Notes under the pieces: model-generated
What the model was told of the DNA's origin: nothing
What the model saw: the letters and a program-made list of their open reading frames with translations, nothing else
Database searches by the model: none
DNA from: Candidatus Kerfeldbacteria bacterium
GTDB taxonomy: Bacteria; Patescibacteriota; Patescibacteriia; SBBC01; CAIJZX01
NCBI GenBank assembly: GCA_903825245.1
Contig: CAIJZX010000013.1
Span: forward strand, 1 to 61,258
Direction: 5' to 3'
DNA length: 61,258 nucleotides
Shown: positions 20,317 to 45,655 of the stretch, one piece after another
Layout of the letters: each line of letters starts with the position of its first letter
Position numbering within the stretch: position 1 is the stretch's first letter
Position numbers and translations under genes: made by a program

Positions 20317-20402
20317 GCCGGAGTGGCGGAATGGCATACGCGCGCGACTCAAAATCGCGTTCCCTTACGGGATTAAGGGTTCGACTCCCTTCTCCGGTAC
20401 CA
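20317..20402 (+). tRNA. tRNA-Leu (anticodon CAA)
   Basis: 86 bases including encoded CCA. Anticodon stem CGCGA/TCGCG with loop CTCAAAA, anticodon CAA; long variable arm typical of tRNA-Leu; T-arm AAGGG/CCCTT. The acceptor is GCCGGAG with CTCCGGT, a G-U first pair. The downstream copy of the 3' end (20550-20569) reads CTCCGGC and would pair perfectly with this 5' end. Confidence 0.93.
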
Positions 20403-28918: not shown

Positions 28919-28993
28919 CGCGGGGAAGTGTAACGGCTGCACGGCGGGCTCATAATCCGCAGGCAGGGGGTTCGACTCCCCCACCCGCAACCA
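28919..28993 (+). tRNA. Initiator tRNA-fMet (anticodon CAT)
   Basis: 75 bases with encoded CCA. The 5' end CGCGGGG and 3' end ACCCGCAACCA give the C1-A72 mismatch that marks initiators. Anticodon arm GCGGG/TCCGC with loop CTCATAA. The D-stem is short (GTG/CAC) and position 7 is mispaired with A66, both unusual. Confidence 0.88.
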
Positions 28994-36500: not shown

Positions 36501-36594
36501 TGGCGGAGGAGGAGAGATTCGAACTCTCGATACGGGTTTAATCCCGTATAACAGGTTAGCAACCTGCCGCCTTCAGCCACTCGGCCACCCCTCC
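36501..36594 (-). tRNA. tRNA-Ser (anticodon GCT)
   Basis: 94 bases with encoded CCA. Acceptor GGAGGGG/CTCCTCC (one G-U), D-arm GCCGAGTGGCTGAAGGC, anticodon arm GCAGG-TTGCTAA-CCTGT, long variable arm, T-arm GAGAG/CTCTC. Leader and trailer are complementary: AGTGATTTTTTGG before the tRNA pairs with CCAAAAAATCACT, which starts at the CCA, giving 13 extra pairs. Confidence 0.92.
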
Positions 36595-36644
36595 TCCAAA
36601 AAATCACTATTGTTTAGGAACATCTTTGGTTAACGATCTTTGTT

Positions 36645-36908
36645 GGCGGAGGCGGAAGGATTCGCCCGGCTAAGCCGGGCCGGGGTTGCTTTTCGCAATC
36701 CGTCTCGCCTGTTGGCTCGACCCTTCGAGACCCTTTCCCGCGCCAGGGCGGAGGGGGCGAGATTCGAACTCGCGAGACCCTTGCAGGTCTGACGGTTTTC
36801 AAGACCGTTCCCTTCAACCACTCAGGCACCCCTCCGCTCCGGCGCGGTGATATGACCGTCGCTGGAGTTTATCCCGATGAAAATCGGGAGCCACTCAGCC
36901 ACGCCTCC
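36645..36908 (-). other. Broken outer tRNA-Ser enclosing tRNA-Ser(TGA)
   Basis: The 5' fragment (36889-36908) is acceptor GGAGGCG plus D-arm. The matching 3' end (36645-36665) is T-stem CCTTC, acceptor CGCCTCC, G, CCA. The acceptor halves pair perfectly. Between them lie a CCCGAT/ATCGGG hairpin in the D-loop, the complete tRNA-Ser(TGA) where the anticodon arm should be, a piece of variable arm and T-stem (AAGGGTCTCG, GAAGG), and an insert of about 57 bases in the T-loop containing CCCGGCTTAGCCGGG. Confidence 0.75.
36749..36835 (-). tRNA. tRNA-Ser (anticodon TGA)
   Basis: 87 bases to the discriminator G; the next three bases are CCC, so CCA is not encoded. Acceptor GGAGGGG/CCCCTCC, anticodon arm ACGGT-CTTGAAA-ACCGT, variable arm GACCTGCAAGGGTC, T-arm GCGAG/CTCGC. 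Flanks 36836-36847 and 36738-36749 (CCGCGCC/GGCGCGG core) are complementary over 12 positions with one mismatch. Confidence 0.9.
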
Positions 36909-40491: not shown

Positions 40492-40592
40492 GCTATACTA
40501 TCCACATGAAATCCCGTTAGACAGGATTCATAAAGACTGCAAAAACAGCACTAATATGGATAAACGTAATTCACTAACCGTCTAATCGGGAT
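40492..40592 (+). promoter_or_regulatory. Promoter and leader-closing inverted repeat of the gene at 40591
   Basis: TGC-TATACT (about 40491-40499) predicts a start near 40506. ATCCCGTTAGAC (40511-40522) pairs with GTCTAATCGGGAT (40580-40592; one bulge), which includes the first two bases of the ATG. The arm is almost the same sequence as the parB stem. Confidence 0.65.
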
Positions 40593-42874: not shown

Positions 42875-42908
42875 AACAAGCGCCCACGGCTGAGGCGCTT
42901 GTTTTTTT
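42875..42908 (+). terminator. Terminator of the SHOCT gene
   Basis: AACAAGCGCC (42875-42884), 9-base loop, GGCGCTTGTT, then a run of seven T. Confidence 0.9.
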
Positions 42909-42966
42909 CTTGCGATATGGTACGATACTGGCGCTTTCGTGTATTTCTTCGCGTTCCTGTGTGCCT

Positions 42967-42994
42967 TCCGTCCTGAGCCTTGTCGAAGGACGGA
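42967..42994. repeat. REP-like palindrome
   Basis: TCCGTCCT, 12 bases, AGGACGGA. The core CCTGAGCCTTGTCGAAGG resembles REP-type palindromes that recur in many bacterial genomes. Lies between the SHOCT terminator and the tRNA-Arg locus. Confidence 0.5.
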
Positions 42995-43026
42995 ATTAGC
43001 TCCGCTCAGCCCAATAACAACTCAAT

Positions 43027-43411
43027 GGAAGCCCCCGCCTGGGCGCCCGTAGCTCAGCCTGGATCCCGTACAACCGCTGCGCGGTCTACGGGGCAAGTGC
43101 TGCATCAGCGAAATATTGTACCTAAAAACCATTCCTAAGTAGCATTTTTTCTGACCTGGGCGCCCGTAGCTCAGCCTGGATAGAGCATCAGCTTGCGGAG
43201 CTGAGGGTCGTAGGTTCAAATCCTGCCGGGCGCACCAGGTCAGAAAAAATCTTGCGGAGCTGAGGGGTCGAGGTGGTCGGCGCAAGCCGAGCAAGTAAAC
43301 TGCTTTACTTGCGACCGCCGAGACGGGCAGCGCGATGTTCCACAGGAACAGCGATGCCCCCCCGGACGTAGGGTTCCAGAGTTTCGTCGGGCGCACCAGG
43401 CGGGGGCTTCC
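43027..43411 (+). other. Broken outer tRNA-Arg enclosing tRNA-Arg(GCG)
   Basis: Outer pieces in order: GCGCCCG acceptor and D-arm (43043-43064); a D-loop insert with the stem CCCGTA/TACGGG; GCATCAG (43111-43117); an insert holding the whole inner tRNA and its flanks; CTTGCGGAGCTGAGGGG (about 43251, anticodon loop and 3' stem); a T-arm insert with GCAAGTAAA/TTTACTTGC; and CGGGCGCACCA (43388-43398). Outer leader 43027-43042 is exactly complementary to trailer 43396-43411 (16 bp). Confidence 0.75.
43160..43237 (+). tRNA. tRNA-Arg (anticodon GCG)
   Basis: 78 bases with encoded CCA. Acceptor GCGCCCG/CGGGCGC, D-arm GCTC/GAGC, anticodon arm TCAGC-TTGCGGA-GCTGA, T-arm GTAGG/CCTGC (one G-U). Leader TTTTTTCTGACCTGG (43145-43159) is exactly complementary to CCAGGTCAGAAAAAA (43235-43249), which starts with the CCA. 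Confidence 0.92.
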
Positions 43412-43476
43412 AGATGTACGAGCTTTTTTGTATTGGGATCGGGAGCCTGTCCCGGTTTAGGTTTCCGGAACTGCCG

Positions 43477-43517
43477 CCTGCCTACTGGTAGGCAGGGACG
43501 CACCAGGTCAAAAAAAA
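43477..43517 (+). repeat. CCTGCCT palindrome, copy 2, and third tRNA-Arg 3' end
   Basis: CCTGCCTACTGGTAGGCAGG (43477-43496) is followed by GACGCACCAGGTC and a run of A. The last part repeats the end and trailer of the inner tRNA-Arg and could pair with its leader in place of the normal trailer. Confidence 0.65.
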
Positions 43518-43594
43518 TACATACAACAAACAGCCAAGGTAACGATTGACAGGTTATAGCCAAGACGGTCAACCTTTTGGTACACTAGTAGCAC

Positions 43595-45655
43595 ATGTCA
43601 CTCAATACGCTCATTGCGAAACTCCCGCGACTCCAGCCGCAGGTCGCCAAAAAGTTCGCCTTGTTGGATTTGCACACCCTGTGGGATTGTTTATTTTACT
43701 TTCCCTTTCGGCATGAAGATTGGCGACAACAAGTACAAATCAGTGATATCGTTGTCGGGCAGGATGTCACCATTGCCGCCAGCATTGTGTCCGTTAAATC
43801 ACGTCCAGCATGGCATCGTCGCGGTACAACGATCACTGATGTGGTCGTGACCGATGAAAGTAACGCGAAACTCCATGTGGTATGGTTCAATATGCTGTAC
43901 CTCGGAAAAAGTTTACAATCCGGCGATCAACTCTATCTCTCCGGCACAATTAGCCAAACAAAAGACGGTCGGTTACAACTGAGCAATCCGGTTTACGAAA
44001 AGCCAAGTGAGAATCCGTTGCATGAAAAGCTCGTCCCCGTCTATCGGTCAACCGAGGGTTTATCGCAACGTCAAATCCGGATGGTTATGAAACAGGCCGT
44101 CGCGTTAGCAAACGTCGTGCCTGATCCGTTCGACGGTTCAACTGTTCAACAACTTGAACTAATGACGTTATCCGAAGCGTTATCAGCAATACATTTTCCA
44201 GACAGTCCGGAACAAGCGGCGCAAGCTGTCGAACGATTGAAATTTGATGAATTACTGGCTTGGCACCTACATATGACCGCAGCAAATTCGACCGTGGCCG
44301 CTACCGCACCGGTCATCCCCTTTCACGAACAAGATATTCGTACCTTTGTGCAACACTTGCCCTACACACTGACCAACGATCAGCGCGTCGCAGCTTGGCA
44401 AGTTCTGCAAGACATCGCCTTGCCACAACCGATGTCACGCCTCGTTCAAGGCGATGTTGGTTCCGGCAAGACCGTGGTGGCCGCTCTAGTGGCTTATAAC
44501 GCTACGCTAAGCCATTATCAGGTTGCGGTGGTAGCTCCAACAGTCGTCCTTGCCGAGCAACACTGGAAAACATTTATTGCGACACTCGGTAAACATGAAA
44601 CAAAAATTGCTCTGCTCACCGGTCACGAAGCAAAAATCTACAGCGCGGGAACCGAGGCCACGGTCAGTCGCGAAGATCTGGAATCTGCTATCACATCCGG
44701 AATAGTTTCTGTTGTCATCGGCACCCATGCGGTTCTGCAACCAGATATCACATTTTATAAACTTGGACTCGTCATCGTCGATGAACAACAACGCTTTGGC
44801 GTTGACCAACGCCAAGTACTACTTTCAGGACGCACCGACACTCCGCACTTTTTGAGTCTCACTGCCACGCCGATTCCAAGAAGCTTTGCTTTGTGGCTGA
44901 GCGGCATTTTAAATATCAGTACCATTGCCACAAAACCAGCAGGCCGGGTCGTGATACAATCCTTTGTGGCTGGCCCGGATGATCGACAACGAATCGATAC
45001 GGCTATCAACACAACCTTGCAGAAGAAAGAACAAATCTACGTTATCACCCCACTGATTGAAGAATCCGACAGTCTCGGCGTCCGAGCCGCCACAACCGAA
45101 CATCAGCGATTGAGCGAGGCGCTCCCCCACGTCCGGGTGGGCATCCTCCATGGCGCGATGCCAGCCGATGAACGAGTGGCGATTCTTGATGAATTCCGTC
45201 GGCACGACCTTGATATCATTGTCAGCACCACCGTTATTGAAGTTGGGGTTGATGTCCCGAACGCGACACTCATCATTATTGAGGGCGCCGAACGTTTTGG
45301 CCTTGCCCAATTGCATCAACTCCGCGGTCGTGTTGGGCGCAGCTCAAAACCAAGCCAGTGTTATTTTGTTACCGATCGCCGAGACGACGCGATTCGAAAA
45401 CGCCTGGAACACGTCGCCGCAACCAGCGACGGCTTCACCATCAGCGAACTCGATTTCTCCGAACGTGGCGGCGGCGATATGTACGGTCAACGCCAATCAG
45501 GCCTGCCGGCGTGGCAGCTGGCGAGCATCAACGACCGTCAACTATTTGAACGTGTTCGGGAATTTTCTTCGACGTTATCAGCCGAACAACAAAACAACCT
45601 GCTCGCGATAGTAGGACGACACGAAAAAACCCTTACACCATTTCATCCAGAATAG
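43595..45655 (+). CDS. recG: ATP-dependent DNA helicase RecG
   Basis: 686 residues, normal length. It remodels stalled replication forks. An N-terminal OB/wedge domain (QDVTIAASIVSVKSRPAWHRRG) precedes the helicase: Walker A RLVQGDVGSGKTVVA, VDEQQRFGVDQR, SLTATPIPRSFAL, and the C-terminal TVIEVGVDVPNATLIIIEGA, LAQLHQLRGRVGRS. TGG-TACACT stands eight bases before the ATG, so the leader is minimal. No Shine-Dalgarno. Confidence 0.95.
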   Translation: MSLNTLIAKLPRLQPQVAKKFALLDLHTLWDCLFYFPFRHEDWRQQVQISDIVVGQDVTIAASIVSVKSRPAWHRRGTTITDVVVTDESNAKLHVVWFNMLYLGKSLQSGDQLYLSGTISQTKDGRLQLSNPVYEKPSENPLHEKLVPVYRSTEGLSQRQIRMVMKQAVALANVVPDPFDGSTVQQLELMTLSEALSAIHFPDSPEQAAQAVERLKFDELLAWHLHMTAANSTVAATAPVIPFHEQDIRTFVQHLPYTLTNDQRVAAWQVLQDIALPQPMSRLVQGDVGSGKTVVAALVAYNATLSHYQVAVVAPTVVLAEQHWKTFIATLGKHETKIALLTGHEAKIYSAGTEATVSREDLESAITSGIVSVVIGTHAVLQPDITFYKLGLVIVDEQQRFGVDQRQVLLSGRTDTPHFLSLTATPIPRSFALWLSGILNISTIATKPAGRVVIQSFVAGPDDRQRIDTAINTTLQKKEQIYVITPLIEESDSLGVRAATTEHQRLSEALPHVRVGILHGAMPADERVAILDEFRRHDLDIIVSTTVIEVGVDVPNATLIIIEGAERFGLAQLHQLRGRVGRSSKPSQCYFVTDRRDDAIRKRLEHVAATSDGFTISELDFSERGGGDMYGQRQSGLPAWQLASINDRQLFERVREFSSTLSAEQQNNLLAIVGRHEKTLTPFHPE

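Follow-up and report, generated by a model that had tools for sequence, protein, structure and literature searches.

The locus described here raises the question of how an intact tRNA-Arg gene came to lie inside the displaced pieces of a second copy of itself, in bacteria whose tiny genomes carry tRNA genes that are mostly single-copy and essential, and in which elements that break such genes should be lethal. It is found in a stretch of 61,258 nt from Candidatus Kerfeldbacteria (referred to below as the window), and had been singled out in an earlier note that described a normal tRNA-Arg nested within a broken one, and that proposed a structured RNA or an unusual processing substrate as possible readings. 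The reading that we favor, with a probability of approximately 0.58, is that the locus is the nested scar of tRNA-invading selfish elements, in which a rescue tRNA has been left. The genomes compared include that of the window (G000), one of the same genus (G001), two of the same family (G002 and G003), and one of the same class (G015).

Organization of the locus

The inner tRNA-Arg(GCG) is intact, as had been claimed, and is presumably the surviving, functional copy (Table 1). The broken outer copy that surrounds it is also borne out, with the pieces at 43043-43064, 43102-43109, 43251-43266, and 43388-43398 (the 3' end, including CCA) each being identical to the inner tRNA, which splits the outer copy at the border between stem and loop of the anticodon arm. 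The gene is not of the split or permuted type, since a complete copy lies inside and no joining of pieces is required. Pairing between the flanks is perfect, involving outer arms of 17 nt and inner arms of 16 nt, one base longer in each case than the 16 and 15 first reported, and the longest arms to arise by chance in 5968 random comparisons of window 30-mers measured 10 nt. The D-loop insert is indeed a hairpin, but what had been taken for a T-arm hairpin is a conserved structured element of approximately 105 nt, here called motif A, which recurs across the class. The 385-nt stretch is far more stable than its shuffled versions, with a predicted fold of -212.8 kcal/mol (z = -10.4). The locus also extends beyond the 43027-43411 originally delimited, in that a third layer, apparently the oldest, is present further downstream, with a palindrome insert (43477-43496) directly 5' of its tRNA 3' end. 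Misassembly is an unlikely explanation, because other metagenome-assembled genomes display similar arrangements. Within the window, displaced 3' copies and hairpin inserts also lie near the tRNAs for Met, Ser-GCT, Ser-TGA, and Leu-CAA (28919-28993, 36501-36836, 20317-20402).

Table 1. Features of the nested tRNA-Arg(GCG) locus, in window coordinates (t, tRNA position).
Feature	Position	Strand	Evidence
Outer flank arm, left, 17 nt	43026..43042	+	Perfect inverted repeat
Outer copy, 5' piece (t1-22), displaced	43043..43064	+	27-nt perfect direct repeat with 43155-43181
Hairpin insert in outer D-loop (CCCGTA...TACGGG)	43065..43092	+	Fold; G003 has a similar hairpin at this site
Outer copy, anticodon-stem 5' strand GCATCAGC (t26-33), interrupted afterwards	43102..43109	+	
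Linker from outer 5' half to inner clamp, without ORF	43110..43143	+	
Inner clamp, left arm ATTTTTTCTGACCTGG, pairing through the CCA of the tRNA	43144..43159	+	Inverted repeat; clamp shuffling
Inner tRNA-Arg(GCG), intact, encoded CCA	43160..43237	+	ARAGORN; Rfam RF00005, 67 bits
Inner clamp, right arm CCAGGTCAGAAAAAAT	43235..43250	+	Inverted repeat, 16 nt, perfect
Outer copy, anticodon loop and 3' stem (t33-48)	43251..43266	+	16-nt perfect direct repeat
Motif A, approximately 105 nt, in outer variable/T-arm region	43261..43367	+	R1 101.2 bits; R2 95.1 bits; covariation; no Rfam match
Outer copy, degenerate T-arm and 3' acceptor with CCA	43368..43399	+	
Outer flank arm, right, 17 nt, perfect complement of left	43396..43412	+	Perfect inverted repeat
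Third layer, tRNA 3' end and trailer GGACGCACCAGGTCAAAAAAAAT	43496..43518	+	21/23 (91%) identical to 43228-43250

Related genomes and the empty site

In the same-genus genome G001, the tRNA-Arg(GCG) has the same neighbors (the protein at 40591 of the window, and recG) but neither shell nor clamp, so that one site is found as an insertion allele in G000 and as an empty allele in G001, a pattern that is expected of homing elements. Shells of differing build surround the same tRNA in G002, G003, G005, G009, and G050; in G003 the outer acceptor stem has decayed, and the D-loop hairpin looks homologous to that of the window. The arms of the inner clamp are unrelated from one genome to the next, being ATTTTTTCTGACCTGG in G000, TTTTTCGCTGAGC in G002, TTTCCCGCGCCCCTG (with one wobble) in G003, and TCAACTTGG in G050, and pairing is kept in all four. 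With the shell variable or decayed in relatives and the clamp still pairing, the behavior of the outer copy is that of debris, and the inner clamp appears as a feature that is kept or remade; given its decay in a relative, the outer copy is probably not a functional RNA.

The arrangement is also far from unique. A tRNA is accompanied, at a distance of no more than 450 nt, by fragments of itself for 15/46 tRNAs in G000, 15/47 in G002, 10/35 in G001, and 8/36 in G015, and in the E. coli sample they are confined to one array (argVYZQ; 5/36 tRNAs). The ends of displaced fragments are enriched 1.7-fold in anticodon loops and 2.1-fold in T loops (P = 7e-4 for all loops).

The clamp around the inner tRNA

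In the seven nested tRNAs examined by folding, the predicted probability of the cloverleaf pairs is no lower when the tRNA stands in its context than when it is folded alone. Shuffling of the 16 nt upstream, which form one arm of the clamp, lowered the mean predicted cloverleaf probability in 7/7 cases, and shuffling of a control block 40 nt away did so in 0/7. The size of the effect varies, with the probability falling to zero for Pro-CGG and the drop being modest, from 0.71 to 0.64, for the tRNA-Arg of the window. Over three genomes, at least 90% of the stand-alone cloverleaf value was retained by 23/25 clamped tRNAs versus 43/102 unclamped ones. Arms of at least 8 nt that hug the tRNA are carried by 10/46 tRNAs in G000, 15/47 in G002, 0/35 in G001, and 2/36 in E. 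coli; a strict tie between clamps and detectable fragments was considered and set aside, being a tendency in G000 and not in G002. These predicted folds support a role for the clamp in insulating the inner tRNA from mispairing with identical fragments. Clamps may be under selection, although any perfect extended stem would insulate a hairpin in silico. The earlier suggestions that simple duplication does not explain the locus, and that complementarity is favored, are supported for the inner flanks, whose unrelated arms still pair and whose shuffling lowers the predicted cloverleaf; a functional RNA formed by the outer copy is not supported.

GIY-YIG nuclease genes beside tRNA genes

A search for GIY-YIG genes covered ten genomes, and distances to tRNAs were counted in the four with full tRNA lists. 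In these, 12 of the 19 small GIY-YIG genes lie at most 300 nt from a tRNA, where 0.49 would be expected (P about 3e-15), and for 11 of the 12 adjacent tRNAs a broken self-copy was recognized by eye at the locus. The association is not universal within a genome, as 4/6 GIY-YIG genes of G000 are not near a tRNA. Assignment of the ORFs to the GIY-YIG nucleases comes from Pfam, and NCBIfam offered no name for them.

The cleanest nested locus with a nuclease inside is the tRNA-Gln(CTG) of G002, which is split in the D-loop, has a 14-bp clamp and 13-nt inverted repeats at the ends of the element, and reads, in order, outer 5' half, CCCCGCCAAATTT end, GIY-YIG ORF, clamp, intact tRNA, clamp, AAATTTGGCGGGG end, and outer 3' half. 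The tRNA-Gln(TTG) of G015 is nested like that of the window, with a split in the anticodon loop, a 13-bp clamp, and a GIY-YIG ORF in the insert; no match to the motif A covariance model was found in that genome. In both tRNA-Gln loci, the ORF occupies the place that corresponds to the linker at 43110-43143 of the window. G000 has a comparable locus of its own, where a GIY-YIG ORF is flanked by a broken tRNA-Leu(CAG) on one side and an intact copy on the other, and the sibling loci with such an ORF within the element include L291, L346, L348, L350 (tRNA-Gln(CTG)), and L352-L355 (L354 being at tRNA-Trp). The shell of the window holds no GIY-YIG ORF, and because of this its link to a nuclease is drawn by analogy with these siblings.

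Small GIY-YIG genes are also present by tmRNA genes and inside 23S rRNA (L337 in G032, L363 in G002, L319 in G032), and one lies directly next to a group I intron (L333, G283:C9; Rfam, 83 bits).

Motif A, a recurrent structured element

Motif A is a structured element that no Rfam entry covers at E values up to 10, and it may represent a new nucleic-acid family of wide distribution; in the window, only tRNA reaches the gathering score. The six G000 copies that were aligned share invariant blocks that include AACTGCTT and CGARACG, and the predicted fold has three parts, namely a short stem that contains tandem GA pairs, a three-way junction that bears a 9-bp hairpin, and a further stem-loop. 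Across 58 matches, drawn from G000 and from 14 relatives, two-sided changes occur at 32/32 pairs and 91% of cells pair; the covariation score of 0.583, versus 0.168 for shuffled and <0.09 for slid alignments, comes from an alignment that was fitted to the model and leans toward structure, but its margin over the controls is wide despite this. The covariance model detects the element in 51/286 genomes of the class, with eight copies in G000 and three in G001. Among named genome records, those that pass it belong to Patescibacteria and to G032, a genome of this class, only, while pattern matches outside Patescibacteria or in viruses failed the model.

Within tRNA genes, motif A is located in broken copies, in the D-loop after GG, in the variable/T-arm region, and in the anticodon loop of tRNA-Pro. 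It is also found at a broken 3' end of 5S rRNA (G000 and G003), in intergenic palindromes, and at repeated 5' ends of genes that read, by their translations, as msrA and dus. Viewed as possible target-site duplications of a transposon, the repeats that flank it range from about 11 nt (L221) to more than 50 nt, and include direct repeats of host sequence of 58/58 nt (L067) and 49 nt (L068). The commonest form of the P2 loop is a C-GAA-G triloop (15/58), which is exceptionally stable in DNA, and it may be the DNA fold of motif A on which selection acts.

Several affiliations of motif A were examined and rejected. It is not the terminal structure of GIY-YIG elements, since it is not located at their ends and the one GIY-YIG locus that has it carries it 1.4 kb away; it may therefore be a separate element that uses the same sites. 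Kinship with RNase P RNA was discarded, as the RNase P RNA of the genome is encoded elsewhere, and the resemblance of the GTTGAGC start to an integron attC site did not survive inspection, the two ends being not complementary and forming tandem GA pairs. Pairing of GCAG with the CTGC loop of hairpin B, which would form a pseudoknot, is not kept in all copies.

Some individual loci are of note. At L090 (G002:C1:188900-191800), an intact msrA-like gene comes after three successive broken 5' ends of itself, each of which stops near a GGCTTCTGG site that has motif A in whole or in part, and a dus-like gene is preceded by a similar broken 5' end (L089). An inverted and a direct copy of the 5S rRNA 3' end, beside an intact 5S gene, are capped by motif A at L055 (G000:C27) and L066 (G003:C37). 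Ten copies in G283 (L296-L305) lie in intergenic palindromes, some of them inside a CCTGAGCTTGTCGAAGG repeat, and 0 near a tRNA. A relative of motif A forms the 3' end of an rplK-like (L11) gene in G161 and G122 (L228, L235), where its 5' strand is coding. At L082 (G002:C1:738973), motif A occupies the T-loop of a tRNA-like gene whose anticodon is CGT and which lacks an intact copy in its vicinity, and a variant element that follows tRNA-Val and tRNA-Leu in G010 bears a second tRNA 3' end along with its terminator (L068, L081).

Origin of the nested locus

The shell of the window is best read, by analogy with its siblings, as ORF-less debris of tRNA-targeting elements of the homing-endonuclease type. 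The founding element would have been short and would have carried a gene for a GIY-YIG homing-type endonuclease; such nucleases would cut tRNA genes in the manner of homing, and the element would thereby break a tRNA gene, usually in a loop. Survival would be limited to those lineages in which an intact copy is retained within or next to the element, and it is in these alone that invasions would be visible. The copies themselves would be generated by breakage and repair, with the rescue copy stemming either from repair-driven duplication or from carriage in the element. Displaced copies would then be free to gather related or freeloading elements, namely ORF-less GC-rich hairpins and the 105-nt motif A, and to decay. 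Renewed invasion of the intact copy would produce nested layers in the manner of a Russian doll, the innermost being the newest and the functional one, and a perfect stem that lengthens the inner acceptor stem would shield its fold from the surrounding fragments. The shell of the window may itself once have held, or have been triggered by, a GIY-YIG nuclease.

Four other explanations have to be weighed against this one. Replication error alone, in which tRNA hairpins in single-stranded DNA lead to template switching and tandem duplication with no mobile element, would fit the long host direct repeats around motif A at L067 and L068, as well as arms that are perfect yet different at every locus, as correction of quasi-palindromes would give; we regard it as unlikely, as it explains neither the association with GIY-YIG genes nor the presence of a conserved 105-nt element in 51/286 genomes at tRNA, 5S, msrA, and dus sites. 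Alternatively, motif A and related elements could be autonomous single-stranded-DNA mobile elements, similar to REP or IS200, which insert after GG in hairpin loops and which, rather than the nucleases, break the tRNAs. Insertion behind a GG in D-loops, T-loops, and the anticodon loop of tRNA-Pro, strong covariation, dispersal in the intergenic palindromes of G283, and the frequent C-GAA-G triloop are all consistent with such mobility. Nevertheless, a Y1/RAYT transposase (PF01797) was absent at E 1e-3 from G000 and G001 despite their eight and three copies, and no clear correlation with Y1 was seen over 29 genomes, so that RAYT/IS200 transposases were rejected as mobilizers; nor does motif A itself supply a rescue copy, and this alternative is quite improbable.

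The two remaining explanations attribute a present function to the outer pieces. A role of the 385-nt fold in its entirety as a functional RNA, or as a special substrate for tRNA processing, as the earlier note had suggested, would agree with its z of -10.4, with the perfect outer arms, and with inner clamps that differ in sequence and keep their pairing in relatives. The shell is, however, absent from same-genus G001, has a decayed outer acceptor stem in same-family G003, and is built differently in the relatives that were compared, and decay of the outer pieces among relatives is what the note itself had named as telling against its proposal; this reading is very improbable. Restoration of the outer tRNA by splicing of unrecognized self-splicing introns is hardly credible: the outer pieces, when joined in one register, do give an ARAGORN tRNA call, but the outer T-arm is degenerate, inserts occupy several loops at once, and nested cases keep an intact copy. 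Furthermore, no core of a group I or group II intron and no other Rfam family was matched as a source of the inserts in 42900-43600 at E values up to 10. Among these possibilities, the nested scar of selfish elements remains the preferred explanation.

Comparison with known systems

A number of known systems share parts of this arrangement. The Allomyces atp6 element combines an endonuclease ORF with a piece of a gene, which takes the place of the resident portion and leaves it as a displaced remnant, and fungal mitochondria harbor double-hairpin elements, which are small mobile hairpins; unlike the loci described here, these are mitochondrial, involve a protein gene, and are not nested tRNAs. 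Fragments of tRNAs are repeated between the tRNA genes of E. coli argVYZQ, as here, and tRNA 3' ends are repeated at tyrT; to our knowledge, both are tandem repeats with neither clamps nor nucleases. For phage T4 SegB, we know of no displaced tRNA halves or hairpin inserts that form part of the system. SegB is a free-standing GIY-YIG homing endonuclease encoded between tRNA-Arg and tRNA-Ile, with a target in the tRNA intergenic region, and resembles the present case in that a GIY-YIG gene lies beside tRNAs and targets their region (PMC2988022). CGTC-tagged palindromic repeats, which include the Rickettsia RPEs, and REP elements are, like motif A, small and structured, some lie in genes, and the CGTC class has no dedicated transposase; in the aligned copies of motif A, hairpin P2 is adjoined by either GACG, the reverse complement of CGTC, or AACG, with GACG preceding it. 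They nonetheless differ in being palindromes of 20-40 bp with no rescue gene copy, whereas motif A is larger, at approximately 105 nt, branched, and bears tandem GA pairs (PMC3733652).

A close precedent comes from rRNA genes of the same bacterial group (CPR), where GIY-YIG ORFs occur in insertions that match no group I or group II intron and that are situated mostly at the tops or bases of stem-loops, although GIY-YIG was judged sparse and outside the context of homing (PMC11270868). The main text of that study deals with neither tRNA nor tmRNA, and the study is not known to describe rescue copies, nested copies, or clamps (PMC11270868). The earlier note's statement that no such arrangement had been described holds for tRNA genes in the searched literature, but is qualified by these non-intron GIY-YIG insertions in rRNA genes (PMC11270868). 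The nested tRNA loci are largely explained as a variant of GIY-YIG elements in RNA genes, with the addition of a rescue tRNA.

Implications

We give about even odds to the broader proposal that endonuclease elements and structured, ORF-less satellites, among them motif A as a new widespread family, reside in tRNA (and tmRNA and 5S) genes in a previously undescribed manner, being tolerated by means of a clamped rescue tRNA and giving rise to nested dolls. The annotation of these genomes should take into account that fragments and strong folds near such tRNAs are likelier to be debris of elements than new regulatory RNAs. If the rescue-copy strategy is true, it would explain how selfish elements persist in these genes in the absence of introns, would account for much of the odd intergenic sequence near the tRNA genes of Patescibacteria, and predicts that the targets of the endonucleases lie in tRNA loops.
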